From Craspedostauros australis (taxonomy: Eukaryota; Bacillariophyta; Bacillariophyceae; Mastogloiales; Achnanthaceae), in the NCBI GenBank assembly GCA_026770025.1, contig JAMXDE010000041.1, forward strand, positions 372,001 through 436,000: 64,000 bases of DNA. The letters are read 5' to 3'. Position 1 is the first letter of the stretch. Every line of letters starts with the position of its first letter. Below the pieces are notes generated by a model. The model had not been told where the DNA came from. It ran no database searches and saw only the letters and a list, made by a program, of their open reading frames with translations. Of this stretch, positions 12,894 through 25,439 are shown piece by piece. The translations under genes and the position numbers were made by a program.

Positions 12894-15694
12894 TTACAGG
12901 TCGGCTCTACGGACGCGAACCACGATTCCGCTGCTGCTGCTTGAGGCTCCGTTGATTCCACCCATCAGAGCTATGCCGCCACCAAAGGCGACCGATTCAC
13001 CGAAGAACTGCTGGTTGTCCGAACCGCATGCGGTGAATCTTCGGCTGAACTGGAATTGGCTGTTTCTGTCTGGCCTTGTGTATGAGTACACCGAGCCGGC
13101 ATCCCTGCCTTCGTCATTGTCATGCTCTGGAGAGCCAATGAGGAGGATCAGCCTGTTCTCGCTGAGAGCGACAGAGAATCCGAAGAAGTCATCTATTCTG
13201 CCATCGAAAGGCACGATCTTCTGGAACTCCTCGAAAGCGCCATTCGCTCGCCGAATGATCACAAACACCGCACCGGAACGTCTGCCGTCGGCTTGGTCGG
13301 ATTGGGCTCCGATGACGATGGTGTCACGCTGCATATCCGCGTCGATGCCAAATGCATCTCCGTCGTTGCGGTCTTCTGGCTTGAGAGTGACTGCGTTTGC
13401 GGTGACGCTGCTGTAGAAGAATGCGACGCCTGGTTGGAAGTTGCGGTCGACTATCTCTTGATGGGCCCCAATGAGAATCGCATCACCGTCCAAGACGACG
13501 GAGATTCCGAACTCTTCATCTTCGTTTGGTTCAGGGTCGAAGAGAATGGTTAAGAACACGTCACCATTCTGCCAATTGCCTCCCAAAAGCTGAAAGTGAG
13601 CAGCGTATCCTCTGCCGTTCAAAGCAAATGGAGCACCAACGATGATGGCCTCAGCATCCGCAGTGATGTCCACAGAGTATCCGAAACTTGTTCTGTCAAG
13701 AAGGATGGGAAAGTTTCTGGGATCGCCATTTGCGTCAACCAAATTCAAATCGTTTGGGATCCTCCGTTCTCCTCTGAAGTCGTCATTATTTCGATTGTAT
13801 CGGTACACCCGGGCTTGGTTGAAGATAGGGAATCCGCCGACGATGTAGTCGCGTTCGTCGTCGCCAGGGAGATCGGAGACAGCCACAGAGAATCCCAGAA
13901 AGAAAACATTGTTGAATGGACCAAAACCGTTGATCGCACTCTGGGAAATGATTTTTTCGTCTGTGGAATCGTTCCGATCAAAGACAACAATTTGCCCGTT
14001 TGTGTCAGGAGTCTGCGTGGAGCTTCCGACCACCAGCCATCTCCTGCTGGCGGCGAGGGAGACGCCGTATGCGCCCGAACGGAACTCGCCGCTGACGCAT
14101 GCTTGAGTTGGCTGACTGGTCGGGTGTGATGTCGGTGCGGATGTCGGTACTGATGTCGGAGCCGATGTAGGTGCAGATGTCGGAGCCGATGTCGGAGCCG
14201 ACGTTGGAGCCGACGTTGGTGCGGATGTCGGTGCGGATGTCGGCGAGGATGTTGGAGCTGACGTCGGTGCGGATGTCGGGACCGATGTAGGTGCTGACGT
14301 AGGTGCTGACGTCGGTGCGGATGTCGGGGCCGATGTAGGTGCGGATGTAGGTGCGGATGTCGGGACCGATGTTGGAGCTGACGTCGGTGCTGATGTGGGC
14401 GCTGATGTCGGAGCCGACGTAGGTGCCGATGTTGGGGCCGATGTAGGTGCGGACGTCGGCTGCGAAGTCGGCATATCGGTCGGCAGTGCTGTCGGCGCCG
14501 ATGTCGGGGCCGATGTAGGCGCAGAAGTGGGTTCCGGGGCCTGAGTAGGGGCCGCAGTCGGAACCGATGTCGGGGCCCGAGTAGGGGCCGCAGTCGGAGC
14601 CGATGTCGGAGCTGAGGTCGGCGCCGATGTCGGAGACGAAGTTGGCATCTCGGTTCGTCCGAGGATGGTCATGATGCGCGCCTTCTCCTGCAGACAGTAC
14701 TCCAGCTCCACAGTGACCTCCGCGATCTGCCCGTTGATGTCGTCGGCGAAGGTGACACCGTCAATGGTCGGCGTCAAGGTGACGGCCGTGCCGCTCCCGG
14801 CAGCTTGGCTCAGCAGCATGGCGAGATCCGAGAGGCACTGGGTGAGATCGTCCTGAAGCTGTGAGAGACGCGCCTCCAGGTCCACCATGGTCTCCGTCGG
14901 CATTGATGTCGGCATCGATGTCGGAAACGCGGTCGGCGTTGCCGTGTCATCCGAATCCACGTTATCGCCCTTGTTGGCCTTCTCCGCCTTGAGGACGCGC
15001 TGGCGGAAGGCGTAGGTTTCGTCGTCAGCGCTGTCGTCATTGTTGCGGGTTCGCGTGCGGCGGACTGTGTGCATGAGGTATGAGTACATGCGAGTATGAA
15101 TCATACGGTAGCCATCGATAATGGAGAATGGATGATTGTGGATCGTAGACCATGGAGCAGCATGGAGCGGTACGCATCGCATGGGGCATTGGGCAGTCGA
15201 CAGCGCACAGTGGATCAGACCACCGCGAGGACGCAGCGATTGACAGCGACCGCCGGTGTGCGAGAGGCGGCGGAACCGGGAAGTTGATGAGCGCGCACAT
15301 CATGGAGTAGAAGATTGATGGATAGGCACGGGTTGACGGAATGGGTGAGGATGGTACATGATACGGCATACGATGGCCAGATGCGACACATGACGGGATA
15401 GCACAACACCATCAGAGCTCCAAACCGCGCTGTGATAGGTAGATGCAGCAACAGCCGGCGGCGACGAAGGCAACCGCAACCACAACCACAACCGGGGCTT
15501 GGCGCAGCAAGGAGAGGCACGCAGTGCTGGGAGCTTCATGTTTGGCAGTACCATCGTTGACGATGCCGAGAGTGAACCACCAGAGCAGTCGTTGCGACGA
15601 TGGGAAGCTTACCGAGCTTGGTGTTCTGCGCGAAGACACCGCTTTGGTTCGAGAGGAGGAGCGCTGATGCGAGCGCGATGATGGAGAACTTCAT
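12894..15694 (-). CDS. Secreted FG-GAP beta-propeller protein with PTSAP linker, two exons
   Basis: Exon 2 (15064-12894) encodes the bulk: a charged N-region, a helical segment (LEARLSQLQDDLTQCLSDLA), a ~180-residue PTSAPTSAP linker, and ~370 residues of FG-GAP/integrin-alpha-like repeats (GAYGVSLAASRRWLVVGSS, FGYSVDITADAEAIIVGAPF, FGFSVALSENRLILLIGSPE). I infer exon 1 at 15694-15613: an ATG, a 22-residue signal peptide (MKFSIIALASALLLS..., cleavage near VFA-QN), then donor G|GTAAGC. The acceptor CACAG|TC at 15065 restores the frame (phase 1), giving a 548-bp intron and a protein of about 750 residues. Without splicing the frame has no convincing secretion signal. Likely role: extracellular adhesion or matrix protein, carbohydrate- or cation-binding by analogy with integrin-like propellers. 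Function is unproven. Confidence 0.82.
14105..14650 (-). repeat. 12-bp PTSAP-coding tandem repeat
   Basis: Imperfect 12-base units coding Ala-Pro-Thr-Ser form the linker of the FG-GAP protein. The same kind of linker occurs in the LRR proteins here, a recurrent design in diatom extracellular proteins (established pattern). Confidence 0.9.
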
Positions 15695-16889
15695 GATCGG
15701 AAAAAGTTGTGATCACAATGTGGCCAGCAAGTTTTTATGCGAATGGGGATGTGGAGGAGTGAAGCCAAGCGATGTTGCCATCTGGTGCTGTTGTGGTCAG
15801 AAGCGCACGAAAGAGAACAACTGCCAATGCCGCACGTGCCCACGATGTTTGTGTGAAGCGACGAACAAGATGCAGAGAGAGAGAGAGAGATGGCCAGCCA
15901 TAAAGGCGCACGGGCACTTGGTCAGGGCATTACATCAACACAAGGCAATTCGAGCGAGATCGCCGTTCTCGTGCAACGACGAACCCCATCGTGTGCGGAC
16001 GTAAAGTTGTCTGCCACCTCTCTTGGCGGCGAGAGGATGCCAGATGCTGCACTGCTACTGCTGCGCTGTGCCATGACCACTGGTGCGGACGTGTGTCGCA
16101 CTGCCCACAACCGCGATCAAGATGGCGAGTAATGTGGCCTTTGCCTCATCAGATTGTGGCTTCAACTCGTGATGTTCTTGTGTTCACATTTTTGGGCGAC
16201 GACGACTTTTGTGAGCGTGTGCTTGCTCTGTATGCATCCACCTCGGGCAATTGGCGCCAACGGAGTTTACGTTCGAGTAACGGTTGAATTCAGTTCTCGT
16301 TTGTGAATGACAATCATTCCGACATTTCTTCAGCTGCCAACTGTTCTAGGGCACTTCCATGGCGGAGAACGCAAATCGGAGACAGGCTTCTTCCTCGTGG
16401 AGCGCAAGGGCTCTCCTGCGCTGCTTGCACGCTGTATGACGAAATGTGTGTTTTGGTTCTGTACTTTCCTTGGTGTTGGGTGACGTAAACAGGATCATTT
16501 CGGTCCAACATGCAAATAGTACGACTTTGGACGGTACAAGGTTGGTCAATGGCCCATTCACGCTGTTTTCGTCGGTTCTTCTTGTCCACATCGCGTGTTG
16601 TGAGGCAACGATGGCGCTATCACACTTAAGCATGTGGGCATCACCTAACAACAACGCTCATGTTCTTTCATGTGGAAACAATCACGGTGAACACGGTCGA
16701 ATATGTCATTAGATGCCACGAATTCGAAGAAGCGTGTCCAAGATTCACATCGTAAAATGTCATTTGGGGTTGGTGATGTATCGAGTCGGTGGTACAGCAC
16801 AGGGAAGTGGGGAGCCTTGCGGATGGCGCGTTCTGGTTGGAGTCTCCGCGAGCGGTTGAGTGGACAATGAGTCACGGCAGATCACTCCT
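15695..16889. other. Intergenic, no gene supported
   Basis: Contains the presumed promoter of the FG-GAP gene and a short (GA)n microsatellite near 15875-15890. Open frames are short, lack family features and are probably chance. Confidence 0.4.
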
Positions 16890-17325
16890 GGGACACCCGG
16901 CAAATCCAGAAAATTGGTCGATGTCCGACTAATTCGACCTCTATTTCGTTGACCTGCGCGAAACACTTCGTTGGGCATAATTGAAACTGTGACAATGACC
17001 ATCCATCCTGGTCTCCAGAATCAGTAACTAATGTCGCATCTCTCTATGACCAACATACTTTTTTAGTACACAAACAAAATATCAAATGTCATTGCGACTG
17101 TCTTTGTGACCTCATTCACGAATTTGATTTCCACGCCTCAAAAAATGGGCTAGTCGTGATAATTCTCATTAATGAGAAACTCATTCTCATTTTTGTTCTA
17201 TAGAAGTGCGCTGGTCGCGACTGTTTCCATTAATGCATTTCTCGTTTCCATTTTTTTCATAGAAGTGCGCTGGGCCCAATACGGTCTCATTTTTTGGTTT
17301 CATGGCATCGGTCACGGGACTCGTC
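16890..17325 (+). repeat. Left terminal inverted repeat of the multi-gene transposon
   Basis: Outer motif GGGACACCCGGCAAAT at 16890, then CGACTAATTCGACCT, a perfect palindrome TTCTCATTAATGAGAA at ~17162-17177, and GCGCTGGGCCCAAT at ~17267. Short repeats of CATTAATG and AGAAGTGCGCTGG lie inside. Confidence 0.6.
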
Positions 17326-17843
17326 ATCCGCCTCGGCGGCAAGCTCGGAGAGTGATCGAAGTCGTCTGTGATGCGGAACCAGAACACGGGAGAACGAGCT
17401 TTGGGATCATCCGGGTCGGACCATCTGGCGGTCGGTCGGTGCGGTCATCCGGTCTTGTACGACGACTCCAAAGCGCCACCGATTTAGTAGTTACGTACGA
17501 GCTCGCAAGTGTCAGAATTCATTCTCAGCTTCATCGGTTCCTCACCTGCGAGCACTCGCCACAGTTCTCAATTTAGCGCACTCACGTCCTGCAATGTACG
17601 CGTGACTATCGTTGACACTACAGCAACTTGGATTGTTCTCTTCTACCCACACTGCTTGGCTGGATTTTTCTTCCTCGCTGAAATTCCAATGACAACAGCT
17701 TTCTCTGCACTTCGCTGATCCATTTAACGGTGTTATGAATGTTGATGATACCAATCTTGTCGTGGATGGTATTTGATTCTTTTTTTCTTGGTGGAGCAAG
17801 GACAATCCAGCAGATCACGAGAAGGCAGTTCCCCACGCAAGAA

Positions 17844-18509
17844 ATGAGTGATGCCACCTCTCCGTTTCCAAAGGCGTCCCACAAAATCAAAAGGACGACG
17901 ATGAACTTCTCTTTTTCACCATCCAACAGCATGGCTGGACACCATCACCACAATCAACAGCCAACCCCTCCGTCCTCTTGCAACTATGTTCAACCTACCA
18001 ACGCAAATCGCCCAACATCAGGAGCGAAGATGATGCTCAGAGGCCTGAGAGCCCAAGCCGAGCCAACGAAGAACCTGCAGTTTGGGATTCGTCCCACGAC
18101 GATCAGCACTGCACCCTCCGCCATCAACAGCACTCACAAGAAGGCGCTCAGCCCACCATTTTTGGGCCTCCCAGGCGGTCACTTCTTCGACATCAACCAG
18201 CGCCATCTTCATGAGCAAGACAGCAGCCACGTCGAGCTCTCTTTTCGCGCAGCATTCGCCTCTATCGACAAGCTGGTCGATACGAGCAGCCTGATCGCAT
18301 TCTACCTCGATGGGTGCTTCTCTGGTGTCTGCTTCATCTGCGGTCACGTCTTCTGGCTACTCGCATATGCAGCCTTCTTGCTGTTTGTGCACTTCATCAT
18401 CGTGGCAAAGACAGCAGGCTTCATCATTTCCTTTGTGAGAGGAATCATCATCGTGCTCGTAAATGCTCTCTTTCATGGTCGACTCGCACGCACTCATGCC
18501 TGTCACTAA
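17844..18509 (+). CDS. Hypothetical membrane protein, transposon gene A
   Basis: I start at ATG 17844 (AAGAAATGAGTG, product MSDATSPFPKAS), giving 221 residues; ATG 17901 is an alternative. The first ~150 residues are polar, with His, Gln and Pro runs (MAGHHHHNQQPTPPSS). Residues ~160-215 are strongly hydrophobic and include GVCFICGHVFWLLAYAAFLL and AGFIISFVRGIIIVLVNALF, consistent with two membrane segments or hairpins. No family is recognised; a reticulon-like hairpin is possible but unproven. It converges on the 176-aa gene, ending 90 bp from it. Whether it is element cargo or a captured host gene is unknown. Confidence 0.55.
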   Translation: MSDATSPFPKASHKIKRTTMNFSFSPSNSMAGHHHHNQQPTPPSSCNYVQPTNANRPTSGAKMMLRGLRAQAEPTKNLQFGIRPTTISTAPSAINSTHKKALSPPFLGLPGGHFFDINQRHLHEQDSSHVELSFRAAFASIDKLVDTSSLIAFYLDGCFSGVCFICGHVFWLLAYAAFLLFVHFIIVAKTAGFIISFVRGIIIVLVNALFHGRLARTHACH

Positions 18510-18599
18510 GATACCAAGATGGAGCAGCAACCAATGACAAGCAGGACCAATACATTCTATAATCCATTGATAAAGTAGTCAGATCGAGTCTAGTTTAAT

Positions 18600-19130
18600 C
18601 TATCCTCTTGTTGCCATGCGTTCCGCCTTTTCTCGTTTCATTTGCAACTGGTTGTTGAACTTCTGCGCTTTCACTTGTTGATAGAGGTGCTGTTTGAACT
18701 GCTTCAAATCAAATGCAGTGTACTCCTGTCGGCTTGCCTTGAGCTCGGCCGGTGTCATATGCAAATGTTTCAGTAGCTTTACATCCTCAACAAGCATGCG
18801 CTTGGCAAGGGACAAGTGCATGACAGGCTTCCCGTGAACGTCTCGTGGTTGCTGAGGATGCAGCTTGCGGTCGCGTTCGAACGCACGCAATTCGATTGCA
18901 GACCGGTCGCGATGCTTGCTCAGCCGCTTCTCAAACGTCTTGAAGTACTTCGCAAACACGGCGTGCGTCATTCCTGGGACTCTGAATTGATGCAATGCAC
19001 GATAGTGCACCCACGCCTCGTCCACAGATACATCCTTCTCATGGAATATGCCGCCAATCTCGAAATCATTCTTGATCATTGCGCTTGCTGGATTGCTGCG
19101 CCAGGTGAACTTCGGCGTGTTGGATGCCAT
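18600..19130 (-). CDS. 176-aa basic protein, transposon gene B
   Basis: Starts at ATG 19130 (MASNTPKFTWRSNPASAMIK). Visible blocks are W-x-x-NPAS with IKNDFEIGG, DEAWVHYRALHQF, VFAKYFKTFEKRLSKH, ELRAFERDRKLHPQQP, and a C-terminal FDLKQFKQHLYQQVKAQKFN helix. It is rich in Lys, Arg and His and looks mostly helical, which suits a DNA- or transposase-binding accessory protein. From memory the block order resembles short proteins seen in algal genomes beside transposases, but I cannot verify that. It is divergent from the 450-aa gene, sharing a ~750-bp intergene with a 13-bp iterated repeat. Confidence 0.65.
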   Translation of the reverse strand: MASNTPKFTWRSNPASAMIKNDFEIGGIFHEKDVSVDEAWVHYRALHQFRVPGMTHAVFAKYFKTFEKRLSKHRDRSAIELRAFERDRKLHPQQPRDVHGKPVMHLSLAKRMLVEDVKLLKHLHMTPAELKASRQEYTAFDLKQFKQHLYQQVKAQKFNNQLQMKREKAERMATRG

Positions 19131-19727
19131 CCTTGCTGCTTGCTGTTGATGTGACTTGCGAAATTTCGAATGTGTGATGTTTCCCGATCATGTCCATCAT
19201 CTCTGTCCAACATCAGCATCAGCACTCATACCAATCACAGCATGCATGCAACTTCTTGGTACCAGCGGTCCAACATGTGTTGCTGTGTTCGTCACTGCAA
19301 GTCCAACTACAAAATATCTTCGAGTTGCGTCCTGTCATCCTCCGCTGTCATCATACCATCCAATCGCCAGCAATATCCCATTTCATTCTTGCCGCCTTTG
19401 CTCGAATCTGGATCTGCATGAAGCTGGATAGTGTCTCATGTGTTTCGCAGCACTTCAATTTTGATCTTGTGTGATAGTCTCGTCGACAGTATTGCACATG
19501 AACAACATCGCACAGAAATCGCAATACTCAGGCTGGTGATTTGGTTTGGATGCCATGCAAAAGCGCGCAGCCATCCAAGGATCCTTCTTCCGTTCAAGTT
19601 CGGTGGGAAATAGGGTTCGAAGCCAGCATTGGTCCCATCATCAGCTTTTGATTTGATGGGCGAGCAAGCCACACTGGGAACTTGCATGAAGCCGAGGTGG
19701 AACCTAGCTGATGATGAGCTCCTTGCT

Positions 19728-19818
19728 CAACACAGAGCATCAACACAGAGCATCAACACAGAGCTTCAACACAGAGCATCAACACAGAGCATCAACACAG
19801 AGCATCAACACAGAAAAC
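19728..19818 (+). repeat. Seven 13-bp direct repeats (TCAACACAGAGCA)
   Basis: Seven head-to-tail copies; one has T for A at the last base and the last copy decays. They sit ~60 bp before the start of the 450-aa gene and in the divergent promoter region of genes B and C. An iterated binding site is plausible (inference). Confidence 0.85.
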
Positions 19819-19876
19819 AGCGACGATTCGACTTGTGGCATCAGAACGAACAGGTATCATCACATAATCTTCTTGG

Positions 19877-21229
19877 ATGATGCAAACCATCGACAATACT
19901 AAAAATCAACGTAAGTCTTTGAGTCGGAGCATCGCACTTGCTGTCGAACGTACAGGCAAAAGGAGGAACGCAATCAGATTTGCCAGAGAGGTCTGTGACA
20001 AGAACACACCAGTGTTTGGTCTGCCAGGAAGTCAACTTCGTGTCCAAAGCAGCCGACAGTTCTCCACATTGAAGAGACGAAGCATCACAAGCTACATGTC
20101 ATTCTTGGAAAAGGCTCACATCCAGCCAGGTGGGGGGACCCTCGCCGAGCTTGCGGATGATGGCAGCGATGACTTCGGCTGTGATGACATCAGTGACCTT
20201 GTTGACAGCCTCACCGACGCACTTGACTCCATCTCGCTGCACTCATCTACTGCTTCGTCGTCTGCAGCTTCTTCATCAGCTACTTCTTTGCCTGTGCGTG
20301 CATCCACAAAACCTGCTCTGTCAGCCAAAGACGCCACCCCCGCGCAAGCACAGCAATCCAACGCCACCACGATGAATGCCAATTCTCTTTCTACCCCGTG
20401 CAAGACGGTGATCATCGAAAGCAAGCAATCAGAGACACCACAGCGTGTCCAAGTTGCTGAAGCAGCCTTCGCTTCCCCGGTTCCAGCGTTCTCTTCGCCG
20501 GTTCCAATCTTCGCGTCACCTGTCTTGACCCCGCATGGACATCGGAACAAGCACATCGAGCAAGACCCGATGCTTGCTTCTTTGTTCAACAATGCTGACG
20601 ATGGCACCAAGGCGAACCCATACAAGATCCCCGTTAACCTCGACTTCCCTGAGCGCAATGGGCGTTTTCTCATTGATCTTGTCAATGACATGGGTGTGAA
20701 GAGCGGAAATTTCTCTGGGTATCACATCCGAGTCCCTTCTTCAATCCACGACTTCGACAAGTGGACTGCGACAGTCCCTGTCGACATGCCATTGGTCGCC
20801 AATCGTGCCCTCGTGATTCGCGGACCCAGCACTTACGGCTGGCATCGCAATCCGCACGACTTCTACTTAACCGACGAAGAAGCTGGGAGTGCAAGAATTG
20901 CGCTTGGATCCACCATGGCAAGCATCGAAGGATCGGAGCATCGGAAGTACTCCTACTGGCTTCTCATTTTCCCTGCTGGTGTTGCGTTCGACCACAACGT
21001 CTTCGAAAAACTCACAGACAACGCCATCCGCACTCACATCTCTGTGCAAGAGGCAGACGAAACCGCAACTGAGCTCGGGTGTGTCACTTATGGAGCATCG
21101 GCATACTGGAAAGTCGTGGTGCAAGGCGGTCGCTTGAATGCCAAGCCTGCCGCGAAGGGCATGAAGAACTATCTCGCCATGTTGAAGGCGAAGAAGACTG
21201 GCGGTGGAAATGGCGATGGCGACGTCTAG
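19877..21229 (+). CDS. 450-aa hypothetical protein, transposon gene C
   Basis: Starts at ATG 19877 (MMQTIDNTKNQRKSLSRSIA). A basic N-terminus (~1-80) is followed by an acidic then Ser/Ala/Thr-rich linker (~90-230) and a compact C-terminal domain (~235-430). That domain includes NPYKIPVNLDFPERNGRFL, STYGWHRNPHDFYLTDEEAG, YSYWLLIFPAGVAFDHNVFE and LGCVTYGASAYWKVVVQGG, then a Gly/Lys tail. I recognise no family. A GTAAGT near 19914 could be a splice donor, but the frame is open across it. It converges on gene D, ending ~180 bp from it. Linker plus folded domain suggests a structural or nucleic-acid-binding accessory role; unproven. Confidence 0.65.
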   Translation: MMQTIDNTKNQRKSLSRSIALAVERTGKRRNAIRFAREVCDKNTPVFGLPGSQLRVQSSRQFSTLKRRSITSYMSFLEKAHIQPGGGTLAELADDGSDDFGCDDISDLVDSLTDALDSISLHSSTASSSAASSSATSLPVRASTKPALSAKDATPAQAQQSNATTMNANSLSTPCKTVIIESKQSETPQRVQVAEAAFASPVPAFSSPVPIFASPVLTPHGHRNKHIEQDPMLASLFNNADDGTKANPYKIPVNLDFPERNGRFLIDLVNDMGVKSGNFSGYHIRVPSSIHDFDKWTATVPVDMPLVANRALVIRGPSTYGWHRNPHDFYLTDEEAGSARIALGSTMASIEGSEHRKYSYWLLIFPAGVAFDHNVFEKLTDNAIRTHISVQEADETATELGCVTYGASAYWKVVVQGGRLNAKPAAKGMKNYLAMLKAKKTGGGNGDGDV

Positions 21230-21410
21230 GTAGTAGTTGGTACAGCACAGCACAACACAGAACAAGAGCAGCTGCAATTGGAACTGCGGCATCGACGTAA
21301 CAAGATAATGAGTGAACATGTGAAGTATAGTATTGATTGGTATGTTGCCTAGTTTAGTGTCCTACTGATATGGTGGGGTTGGTGTTGTGCTGCGCTCTGC
21401 CTTGTGTCCA

Positions 21411-21827
21411 TCAGGCCATGCCCGGATTGCGAGGGATTTCATCAACACCAACGAAGCGATGATCCGCGTCATCGCCAAGCTGTACACGGATCTGCGATGC
21501 TTGCTTCATCTTCCGAATAAGGATGTTTTGGAAGCCTCCGATATCCCCAGTGTCGAGGATGTTGCACTCGCACATCGCCATCGCAAGCTTGTCGACCAGC
21601 TTGTTGATATCAGCATGCTGTTGCAAGATCGCCTCGACTTTGTTCTCTGGGATCTTGCGGCGCTTGACGTTGTCCTTGCTGATCGCGGTTGCCTTCAGAT
21701 GCCCGTTGTCCAATTGCAAGATAACCGGAATGCGAGTCTTCGTTCGTGCCTTCTGGGTATTCACCCACCCAATAAGGCCTTTGTACTTGCCACCAACGGC
21801 TGTGATTGGTTTTCCTTTCATTGCCAT
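21411..21827 (-). CDS. 138-aa KOW-like hypothetical protein, transposon gene D
   Basis: Starts at ATG 21827. The N-terminus MAMKGKPITAVGGKYKGLIG followed by WVNTQKARTKTRIPVILQLD resembles a KOW-type beta-barrel loop (Gly-x-Tyr/Lys-Gly after a G-K-P start). The C-terminal half is helical (VEAILQQHADINKLVDKLAM, FQNILIRKMKQASQIRVQLG). KOW-like folds bind RNA or protein; assignment here is only by pattern. It is divergent from the transposase gene with ~465 bp between, so the two may share a promoter. Confidence 0.6.
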   Translation of the reverse strand: MAMKGKPITAVGGKYKGLIGWVNTQKARTKTRIPVILQLDNGHLKATAISKDNVKRRKIPENKVEAILQQHADINKLVDKLAMAMCECNILDTGDIGGFQNILIRKMKQASQIRVQLGDDADHRFVGVDEIPRNPGMA

Positions 21828-22291
21828 GTTGTTCTGGAAGAGATGAACTATGGCATCATCATCTGTGCCAACATGTTGACAACAGCAACAGTAACAGCAA
21901 CGCGACTAGTGGCAATGCTCGTGGTTGGCAACTCGCGAACACGGGGCCCAACGAGTAACAGTAACAGCGATTGAATTTGATTTCGCGGGTTTGAGACATG
22001 TCGCCAAAGGGGTTGGCTCGATTACTTCTCTGTGCACGAGTATGATCACATGTTGCTGTTTGCTTTCGTGCGCGCTGGCGATTTCGTGGCGTTCGGTTGT
22101 TTTGATCGATCGCATCGCCATCGGCTGTAGCGTTCACGGCACACTGTTGATTCTTCAACCAGAAGTGCAAGTTGTACAACTACTGTCAGCATTAGCATCA
22201 GCATTAGCATAAAGAGTAGCAAGAGGAACATCAGACTTCGCAACAACAGCAACAGCAACGAAGACAATCATCGCGCACCAACCACTGCAGC

Positions 22292-23200
22292 ATGTTTTTG
22301 AGTCCAAACACTGTTCTCACGCTCGGGCTTCAGCTGGTGGGGATTCAACACACCGAACAAACATCAAAACGCACTCTTGTCAAACTCTTCCGACAACATT
22401 ACGGTTCCAATCCGCTTGATGTTGCCGAGATCTGGTTTGACTTGTGTCATACGACGATCTCTGAAGCTGCGATTGGCACGAAAGAGCAAACAATGAAAGG
22501 GTTCACATTCTATATGATTGCTCTCTATTATCTGTGGCTCTATCCAAAGAACTCGGGCGTCATCGTTTCCCGTTTCGGTATCTGTGAGCGGTATGCCCGA
22601 GGCGAAGCAATTTGGAACTGGATCAAACGCATCGCAGCATTGCGCGCAAAGAAGATCGTCTGGACCAAGTCGTTGGACCACCCCAATTCAGCCATTTTCG
22701 CAGTGACGGTTGATGGCACTGATTTCCGCACGTGGGAACCCAAGCACCCAACACTGCCAGTGGACCGAGCGCAGTTCTCTCACAAATTTAATCATGGCGC
22801 GGTGAAGTACGAGATCGCAATTTCGGTCTTCACATCAAAATGCGTTTGGATCAACGGTCCATTTCCAGGCGGAACACATGACAGAACCATCTTCCGCCAA
22901 GGTCTCAAGGACAAAATCGCAAGAGGCAAATTGGCCATCGCCGACCGGGGATACCAAACAAGCGAACCCAACGAACGCAAAAAATTGTCATTGCCAAGCG
23001 GCACAGATTCGAGACACCTCGCCAAGTTCAAGAGCCGAGCTCGTTGCCGACATGAGAGCTTCAACGGTCGGATCAAAAAATTCAAGATCATGGATGACAC
23101 CTTTCGCCACGGTCACCAGTGCCATGTACACGCCTTCGAAGCTGTGTGTGTGATTCTGCAGTACCAAATGGACAACGGGTCTGAATTGTTCGCAGTGTAG
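22292..23200 (+). CDS. DDE transposase (Harbinger/IS4-like, DDE_Tnp_4 type)
   Basis: 302 residues from ATG 22292. Candidate catalytic residues are D141 in FAVTVDGTDFRTWEP, D218 in LAIADRGYQTS and E255 in RHESFNGRIKKF. Between them are FSHKFNHGAVKYEIAIS and WINGPFPGGTHDRTIFR, and near the end FRHGHQCHVHAFEAVCVILQ. This order is typical of the Harbinger-like DDE endonuclease superfamily; the length is at the short end, and a separate DNA-binding subunit is usual in that family. No internal stops. It would cut and rejoin the element ends. It is the clearest reason to call 16890-23796 a transposon. Confidence 0.88.
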   Translation: MFLSPNTVLTLGLQLVGIQHTEQTSKRTLVKLFRQHYGSNPLDVAEIWFDLCHTTISEAAIGTKEQTMKGFTFYMIALYYLWLYPKNSGVIVSRFGICERYARGEAIWNWIKRIAALRAKKIVWTKSLDHPNSAIFAVTVDGTDFRTWEPKHPTLPVDRAQFSHKFNHGAVKYEIAISVFTSKCVWINGPFPGGTHDRTIFRQGLKDKIARGKLAIADRGYQTSEPNERKKLSLPSGTDSRHLAKFKSRARCRHESFNGRIKKFKIMDDTFRHGHQCHVHAFEAVCVILQYQMDNGSELFAV

Positions 23201-23399
23201 CTTGTTCATGCTTCATTGTCACTAGTAACAAAATTAGCCCACTATTGTTGTGCTTATTCCTTGTCATCTCGGGTGTTGAGACTCATGTTGCTGTATTTGT
23301 TTGGTAATCATCTGTCGTCAAGTTGCGTGGGCAGAGAAGACCGGCTGCGATGGAATGTCAGTGTGGCACGTCATTCACGAGTGATTGAGGTTGGCCTTT

Positions 23400-23796
23400 T
23401 AGAATTGCGCTGGGCCCAATTACTTTCCATTTTTTGGAGCGAAACCCATTAATGAGAAACGCGTTTCCATTAACCATTTTATTTTACATTATCGGGACTG
23501 GCTTTCCATTAATGAGAAAGCGAAAACCATTTTTCATTGCGCTTGCCATTTTTTGTTCCGGAGAGATATTTCACGGGACTCGATAGCTTCAACAACAAAT
23601 ATCAATACGGCAGGTGCATGCCTGAATAAATGTCATTGATATTAAAGTGAGAGCCATTATTTAACATATCATTCCCAACGTACTTTTTACAGCGATGGCC
23701 TTCGAAGAGGAGAACGAAGCGAAGAATTGAAGGAGAAGAGCGATTAGGTCGAATTAGTCGAATACTGACGTGGTTGATACATTTGCCGAGTGTCCC
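23400..23796 (-). repeat. Right terminal inverted repeat of the multi-gene transposon
   Basis: Carries GCGCTGGGCCCAAT at ~23407, two CATTAATGAGAAA blocks (~23447 and 23507), CCATTTTTTG, AGGTCGAATTAGTC at ~23747 and the terminal ATTTGCCGAGTGTCCC at 23781-23796. As reverse complement it follows the left end block by block. TCACGGGACTCG occurs in direct orientation at both ends (~17313 and ~23571). Confidence 0.6.
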
Positions 23797-25439
23797 TGTG
23801 CTATCGGACACAAGAACACGCAAACCCGTGTAGTACTTTACTCCATGGCATTGTACCTCTCTGGTATCCGGCGCCAAAGCGAAAATTTGGGTGACAAGTC
23901 AGCGTTCGCGCCAGACACGCCAAGGAGTACGATACACAAAGAAGCATGGTGCGGTCAAGGCGAAAGGTGGCGTGCTGTGCTCAACGTACCGTTGCGGATT
24001 GGTTGGGCACATGGTCTCCTCTTCGCGGCGAGCTCGGCGAGGGTGTAAATCTGTTGCAATCGAGAGCGCGGAAGAATCGCGTCTTGGTGTTGTTGTTGAT
24101 GCTGCTGTGGTTTCTGGCACCAATCGATCAGTCCCCCAGCTCTCTCTCTCTCTTTGGGTTGAACCTGCTCAAGCGTCCGCCCGAGTTGGCACAGATAAAA
24201 TCGGCGGGGCATGATTGGATCAGGCAGAGAGAAGAGCACAGTTGGCACATCCAATTGGTTGGCGTATACAGCAGTAGAGGTGCCGAGGCGGAGTAGTCGG
24301 AGAGTCACCTCGACGAGGAGTACCGCACCACGGGGTACAATAGAGGAGAGAAACTGGTCCTTCTGTTTTCTTTGCGACGGACAGAGGCAACCCTTCACCT
24401 TTGGCGGGGCGCGTTCCCGAGTTCTGGGGCCACTCGAACCCCTCTCGTGAGGTGATCTTGTCAAGAGTGTCAGGAAGACTTCATGCAACCTCTGCGACTA
24501 GAGTTCGAGTTAACATATCATTTCGTCGTGCTCTCCGATCGTTTGTTTCTGCCTTCTGTCCTTCACGACTTGGGCCTGACATGTTGGACAACAAGATGGA
24601 ATCGGTTGCCGTGGAGGTTGGATGTGCCTGTGAACGAGAAGGGCAGTGTCTTGTCACCTCACCAACTTTTGTCCATGCACTCTTTGCCTATGGTGGCCAT
24701 GTGGATGCTGACACCGTGCTCCCGTTTCCTATTTCCCATCTGCAATGCTGACTCTGTCACCGGTGGCTCTCTACATCGGCAACGAAGCCAAAAACAGCAC
24801 TGTGCCTTCACCGTTCTCATGAGATGAAGTGTTGTGCTTGGGTTCTGGTTCAAAACAGCATTGATGACGTCGATGGTAATCCTGATGACTTTTGTCAAGG
24901 TGATGGGATGAAAGTGTTATTGGAGACATTGTGCAGACAATCACAGAATCCTCGTCCATGCCAATTGTTGGCAGCACTCGCCGTAGACCTGGCTGGCTTG
25001 TGTGGCATACAGGAGGAGGAGGAGAAGGAAGATAAATTCTCTTGGCGACCATACTCCCAGAGTCCTATGCTGTGCTACGTTTCGCTACAATTGCATGTGC
25101 TATGAAGACAAGGAATCACTTTCTCTCTTCCAGGTCTACCTTATCCAACAGAACGAACTAATGAATGATCTATCCATCGAATCTCGTCCTGTTTGTACCT
25201 GTGCTGCGAAACCGAGGCAAGCTACTGACAATGTATGTATGCATGTATGTACGTGTTTCATCCAGAGATGAGGCGATCATCGCATCACTGCCCCCTGCGA
25301 TTTGGATCAAGACGCAGTTCGTTCCAGTATGTACCTTCATTGATTCTGAAAAGACGGTTACATGTTGTGGGGTGGTGGATGACGGATGGCTGATTCCTTC
25401 CTGTTGGCAGCATGATAGAGGAGCAAAAGGCTGCAACGC
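23797..25439. other. Intergenic, no gene supported
   Basis: Lies between two DNA-transposon candidates. It contains a short CT microsatellite near 24140. The open frames seen lack ATG starts or family features. Confidence 0.4.

Follow-up and report, generated by a model that had tools for sequence, protein, structure and literature searches.

A multicopy DNA transposon carrying a DDE transposase and four conserved companion genes in Craspedostauros australis

The window analysed here is a stretch of 64,000 nucleotides from the diatom Craspedostauros australis (GenBank assembly GCA_026770025.1, contig JAMXDE010000041.1, positions 372,001 to 436,000), and its positions 16890-23796 hold a multicopy DNA transposon in which a DDE transposase is accompanied by four conserved genes. 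An initial annotation had described five compact genes in alternating orientation (+ - + - +), and all five frames were found at the places and on the strands it gave. From left to right they encode TM, a probable membrane protein of 202 residues (17901-18509, plus strand); P176, a basic protein of 176 residues (18600-19130, minus strand); P450, of 450 residues with a helical and weakly helix-turn-helix-like N-terminal domain (19877-21229, plus strand); P138, of 138 residues with a weakly KOW-like N terminus (21411-21827, minus strand); and the transposase, of 302 residues (22292-23200, plus strand). The open frame of TM spans 17739-18509 on the plus strand, and the family alignment places the beginning of the conserved protein at 17901. 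The genes lie between outer inverted ends of 51 bp (16890-16940, plus strand, and 23746-23796, minus strand), which are 75% complementary and are common to other copies, and inner inverted blocks (17163-17241, plus strand, and 23441-23518, minus strand), which match in register at 68% (E 2.8e-4). As two blocks pair, the earlier description of ends inverted block by block over some 400 bp is right in kind, yet pairing is patchy beyond the 51 bp, and measurable pairing is limited to about 130 bp of the outer 360. An open reading frame (ORF) of 134 residues at 17172-17576, which shares sequence with the inner inverted block and matched nothing in Pfam, was taken as a chance frame. The spacer between P176 and P450 contains a 13-bp tandem repeat of 6.8 copies (19727-19814).

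The transposase matches the Pfam profile DDE_Tnp_4 above its cut-off (E 1.4e-13) and the NCBIfam profile IS5_4 below its cut-off (E 3.1e-5). Its predicted catalytic triad is D141, D218 and E255, where 36 residues separate the second from the third (DD36E by position), and the three residues are invariant in nine aligned transposases. By these profile matches and residues the protein is of the PIF/Harbinger/IS5-like type, in agreement with the Harbinger-like assignment made at the outset. The PHIS superfamily comprises PIF/Harbinger, ISL2EU, Spy and Nuwa, relatives of bacterial IS5, and the element has the features of that group: a DDE transposase of the IS5/Harbinger type, terminal inverted repeats and a short target duplication.

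A search of the 74.8-Mb genome (90 contigs, the window lying on contig C39) with 16890-23796 returned 49 rows, 40 of 86 candidates being scored. Both outer ends and all five genes occur together at five places, which we call family A: the window copy and copies on contigs C65, C32, C10 and C2, with identities to it of 99%, 97%, 95% (right end 88%) and 95% (right end 89%), respectively. The flanks of the five copies differ while the ends are alike, which supports the annotation's inference that the five genes move together; a search for further copies with the same ends and gene set was the check that it had suggested. All five frames are open in the window copy and in those on C10 and C2; the C65 copy has a stop in the transposase, and in C32 a nested element splits the 176-residue gene. 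Later insertions interrupt the copies on C10, C2 and C32. Fragments lie on C66 (two pieces) and C64, and a transposase fragment at 112 kb of C13 (L025) is without a companion match in the 9-kb stretch examined. In eleven of the 49 rows the match, at 78-83%, is confined to the 3' end of the transposase gene (155-182 bp); these short matches, located on C34, C28, C58, C46, C23, C20, C19 and C3, could represent small derivatives or belong to different transposase families. The C13 fragment and the short matches leave some room for the annotation's first refuting result, namely transposase copies that have close ends and no companions. We also observed a gene-poor family of 2.7 kb with A-type ends and an unrelated middle (L013 3049-5735, L020 1002-3689, L018/L019 and L017 737-8578), one copy of which is interrupted by about 13.5 kb, and another of which holds a stretch, presumably a retrotransposon, with an ORF of 1451 residues and a CCHC-type motif.

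The ends of family A read GGGACACCCGGCAAAT...ATTTGCCGRGTGTCCC; ends of the related families B, C and D, described below, have the start GGGACACYCGGC in common, and those of the distant family E read GGAACACCCAACATT. Flanks were compared for a target duplication at the 15 insertions with both ends readable (five of family A, three of the gene-poor family, three of C, two of D and two of E), and in 15 of 15 the base in the middle of C-W-G is the same on the two sides, either A or T. The duplicated target is CWG, although formally it may also be counted as the single W, with the further C and G assigned to the ends. In the window the two copies read CTG (16888-16890 and 23796-23798), and the final G of the left one can be counted to the element end. 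With CWG as the duplication the terminal bases are GGACAC (GAACAC in family E); GGGACAC applies only with a one-base duplication. Two nested insertions show the target both with and without the insert: the nested element on C32 sits in GCC-A-GGTG of the 176-residue gene, for which the window copy provides the uninterrupted target, and a C-type derivative is inserted in ATTTC-CTG-GTGGCA of a C-family transposase, for which the copy on C40 is the uninterrupted relative.

The gene set is also found, collinear, in diverged families of the same genome. In families B (C1 and C13) and C (C40 and C4) all five genes recur in the order + - + - +, the transposases of family B being truncated, and partial C-type copies lie on C13, C29 and C53. 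The P138 of family D occurs at eight places, and the three copies examined (C28, C17 and C54, that on C17 without a left end) have four genes, - + - +, over about 5.5 kb, without TM. Families F and G have the transposase and a P176-like protein, and G holds a relative of the P450 N-terminal domain (E 4.5e-6). Searches with P138 and TM found nothing at the places of families F and G, where strong divergence could hide them, and a protein of 365 residues in F matched P450 only weakly (E 0.014, probability 3%). A second exon in G was compared with the P450 C terminus, and the comparison gave no support for that identity. Two copies of family E were examined, which are 97% alike over 3.6 kb and have a transposase with stops and only a relic of P176; the family appears to be an element with a dead transposase that was amplified in trans. 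The two copies occupy L035 1183-4760 and L040 76-3613, with the transposase broken by in-frame stops. In at least nineteen rows of the transposase search, most of the protein is matched at 40-46% with in-frame stops, often three TGA and one TAG. The B copy on C1 is flanked by 1.2-kb inverted repeats that are 98% identical (L023 1-1218 and 7786-9005), and its transposase is cut at the border.

For each of the five genes the two most similar families are A and B (for TM only slightly, 50% vs 48%), and in the four genes that D possesses it stands furthest from A; the transposase comparison of A, B and D extends over 162 columns because the B protein is truncated. In a transposase tree of 15 rows, F and G stand apart from A-E (100/99) and D is joined with E (93/92), the forks inside A-B-C being open. 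The gene contents are most simply read as a gain of P138 before families A-D separated and of TM before A-B-C did, together with losses in E; alternatively, the distribution of P138 and TM may reflect losses instead of gains.

None of the companions matched a family above its curated cut-off in Pfam or NCBIfam, and PHROGs, which has no such cut-off, gave no confident family. A comparison with the Pfam Myb profiles, domains that diverge strongly, likewise gave no match. The best profile hits in the PDB were at E 0.044 for P176 and 0.97 for P450, with none for the transposase. P176 contains 34 Lys/Arg and 19 Asp/Glu among its 176 residues and has relatives in families A-G; a match of its family F relative to LRS4 (Pfam E 0.006) was not believed. 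P450, present in families A-D, has helices predicted at residues 9-94 with fair confidence, and its structural model, confident for about residues 11-95 only, is nearest, though weakly, to TrpR; its C-terminal domain is conserved. For P138, also present in A-D, the weak matches include KOW5_SPT5 (E 0.085 and 0.0053) and KOW (0.13) in Pfam, a MotB-like phage family in PHROGs (E 0.0018) and ribosomal protein L24 (E 0.08), while other weak rows disagree with this KOW-type signal; the N terminus of P138 thus appears weakly KOW-like. TM has a hydrophobic C-terminal stretch at about residues 129-193 in A, at 193-229 of the 251-residue frame in B and at 136-189 in C, and is about 50% identical to its B and C counterparts. 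As the initial annotation had suggested, it is probably a membrane protein, which by its hydropathy would have one to three passes or a hairpin. A thioredoxin-like match of TM (Pfam E 0.01) covers a low-complexity N-terminal part and was not believed.

Purifying selection acts on every gene in close copies. The ratio of nonsynonymous to synonymous substitution rates (dN/dS) is below 0.45 for every gene with a defined value: between the window copy and that on C10 it is 0.26 for TM, 0.43 for P176, 0.13 for P450, 0.04 for P138 and 0.11 for the transposase; between the C copies on C40 and C4 it is 0.15 for TM, 0.12 for P138 and 0.08 for the transposase; and between the D copies on C28 and C54 it is 0.20 for P176, 0.20 for P450, 0.09 for P138 and 0.09 for the transposase. 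P138 shows no synonymous change between the B copies on C1 and C13 and therefore has no ratio there, and between families, where synonymous sites are near or past saturation, ratios are indicative only. The companions are not single-copy host genes. For their co-occurrence with transposases, 130 of 396 transposase candidates were scored, and rows that were further pieces of a place already listed were dropped before counting (3 of 130 for the transposase, 2 of 68 for P176, 4 of 25 for P450, 2 of 15 for TM and 0 of 19 for P138). Within 10 kb of one of the 127 listed transposase places, an area of at most 3.4% of the genome, lie 18 of 19 places of P138, 10 of 13 of TM, 17 of 21 of P450 and 49 of 66 of P176.

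A published group close to it in description is NuwaI, which has a CWG duplication, ends usually starting with GGG, and two ORFs (transposase and Myb/SANT) in about 4.5 kb, and which is placed in 16 animal genomes only by the text, and mainly in animals by the abstract, of the source (PMC4482050). The present element shares with it the CWG duplication, ends starting with GG, and a DDE transposase with a separate companion gene, and differs in its five genes, its 6.9 kb, its GGA ends (with CWG as the duplication), the lack of a detectable Myb domain and its algal rather than animal host. PIF/Harbinger elements proper are described as having a TWA duplication and two genes (PMC4482050, PMC9179366); a DDE_Tnp_4-type transposase with a basic companion is common to both, whereas CWG and five genes are found here. 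Genes beyond the usual pair are described for the PHIS-type elements PHISTA, with a TA duplication, a TET/JBP dioxygenase and a third protein without a Myb domain, and HarbingerS, which carries a SET methyltransferase (PMC12730594, which cites the latter). In Pfam scans of our element no TET/JBP match was found, no SET match at E up to 1 or 0.5, unlike HarbingerS, and no YqaJ match, and its CWG differs both from the TA duplication of PHISTA and from the AT duplication of ISL2EU, which has a YqaJ nuclease gene. PIF_Harbinger-1_PI and Harbinger4_TP, described as sister to the PHISTA lineage near Nuwa, resemble it in having 3-bp target duplications, the comparison being by description only (PMC12730594). 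These two may be its nearest published relatives. Their suffixes presumably denote an oomycete and a diatom. The annotation's view that the element is unusually gene-rich agrees with the one to three genes of published relatives, and in the accessible portions of the open-access literature, a coverage that excludes Repbase, we found no PHIS element that carries a fourth gene. Its features group the present element with the PHIS transposons, as one that chooses its targets in the manner of NuwaI and whose set of five genes is undescribed.

Taken together, we consider it probable that the locus is a 6.9-kb cut-and-paste PHIS transposon that moves as a five-gene unit with a CWG duplication, with P176 as a transposase partner and TM as a later addition. 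The DDE transposase would cut and join at the GGACAC...GTGTCC ends. In Harbinger, the Myb-like protein attaches to the ends and helps to import the transposase into the nucleus, as described in PMC9179366; because a P176-type companion stands beside the transposase in families A-G, the data suggest that P176 acts in place of that Myb-like partner, in which role it would bind the ends and recruit the transposase. P450 and P138 could be further nucleic-acid-binding subunits for transposition or expression, and TM, seen only in families A, B and C, may anchor element proteins to a membrane, for instance the nuclear envelope. A rather doubtful extension, which we offer tentatively, is that the transposition machinery was enlarged in steps, in which a transposase with P176- and P450-type partners was joined first by a KOW-like fourth protein and then by TM as an integral membrane protein, and that part of its cycle takes place at a membrane; if so, nuclear entry, nuclear-envelope tethering or spread between cells would be the membrane steps to consider.

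Several observations weigh against the probable reading. Judged alone, the outer inverted ends are modestly above chance, the 51-bp pair giving a local alignment score of 37 where 200 dinucleotide shuffles reached at most 34. One of the two B left ends fits CWG, and the other, the single left end of the copy on C13, reads CCG. No excision footprint or between-strain empty site was seen, and activity is inferred. Co-occurrence and weak resemblance are the grounds for regarding P176 as a partner and for the functions proposed for P450, P138 and TM. No listed transposase lies within 10 kb of 17 of 66 places of P176, 4 of 21 of P450, 3 of 13 of TM and 1 of 19 of P138; among these misses, the B copy on C1 keeps a DNA-level transposase remnant, and the place at 1604-1607 kb of C13 is probably the left part of a C copy with its remainder near 1632 kb.

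The transposase, perhaps with P176, might suffice for movement, and P450, P138 and TM would then be cargo that helps the element otherwise, for example against silencing, an account that we regard as possible if on balance unlikely. The variation in gene content, with D lacking TM and neither TM nor P138 seen in F and G, fits it, as do the published PHIS elements described as moving with one or two genes, some with an extra enzyme gene (PMC9179366, PMC12730594), and an anti-silencing role has been discussed for the TET/JBP and SET genes of other transposons. However, Pfam and NCBIfam scans found no known enzyme or anti-silencing domain, and selection and co-inheritance across A-D show that the genes matter, yet in a way that does not distinguish machinery from cargo. 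It is scarcely credible that nested elements or host genes came together by chance between two unrelated ends: nested insertions are indeed common, with three of five A copies interrupted, but the same order is found in all five A copies and recurs in the diverged families B and C, which have ends of their own, and this contradicts such an assembly. An origin as a reduced virus, or as an element resembling a virophage or a Polinton, with an acquired Harbinger-type transposase would explain why the genes are compact, alternate in strand and lack known families, and why one probably encodes a membrane protein, and is nonetheless very improbable, as the transposase, P450 and TM have no relatives in viral contigs by pattern-plus-tblastn (P176 and P138 not scanned) and Pfam and PHROGs reveal no recognisable viral gene besides the weak KOW-type matches of P138.

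Cut-and-paste transposons are usually regarded as minimal, with one or two genes. If the locus is a five-gene PHIS transposon as we propose, four companions without a recognised family are under selection beside a transposase across well-separated families of one genome, and the series of gene contents, from F and G through D to A, B and C, makes gene gain and retention by transposons directly testable. The text of a 2015 survey places the CWG-type group only in animals (PMC4482050), whereas the host here is an alga.

Outside the element, the window contains an ORF of 762 residues on the minus strand (12894-15182) with a long PTSAPTSAPTS repeat region. The gene content elsewhere in the host points to a silicifying photosynthetic alga, most probably a diatom or some other ochrophyte. 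The silicon-transporter family PF03842 gave 88 rows on many contigs, 31 of them nearly full length, and looks very greatly expanded; light-harvesting proteins gave 61 rows in the host contigs.

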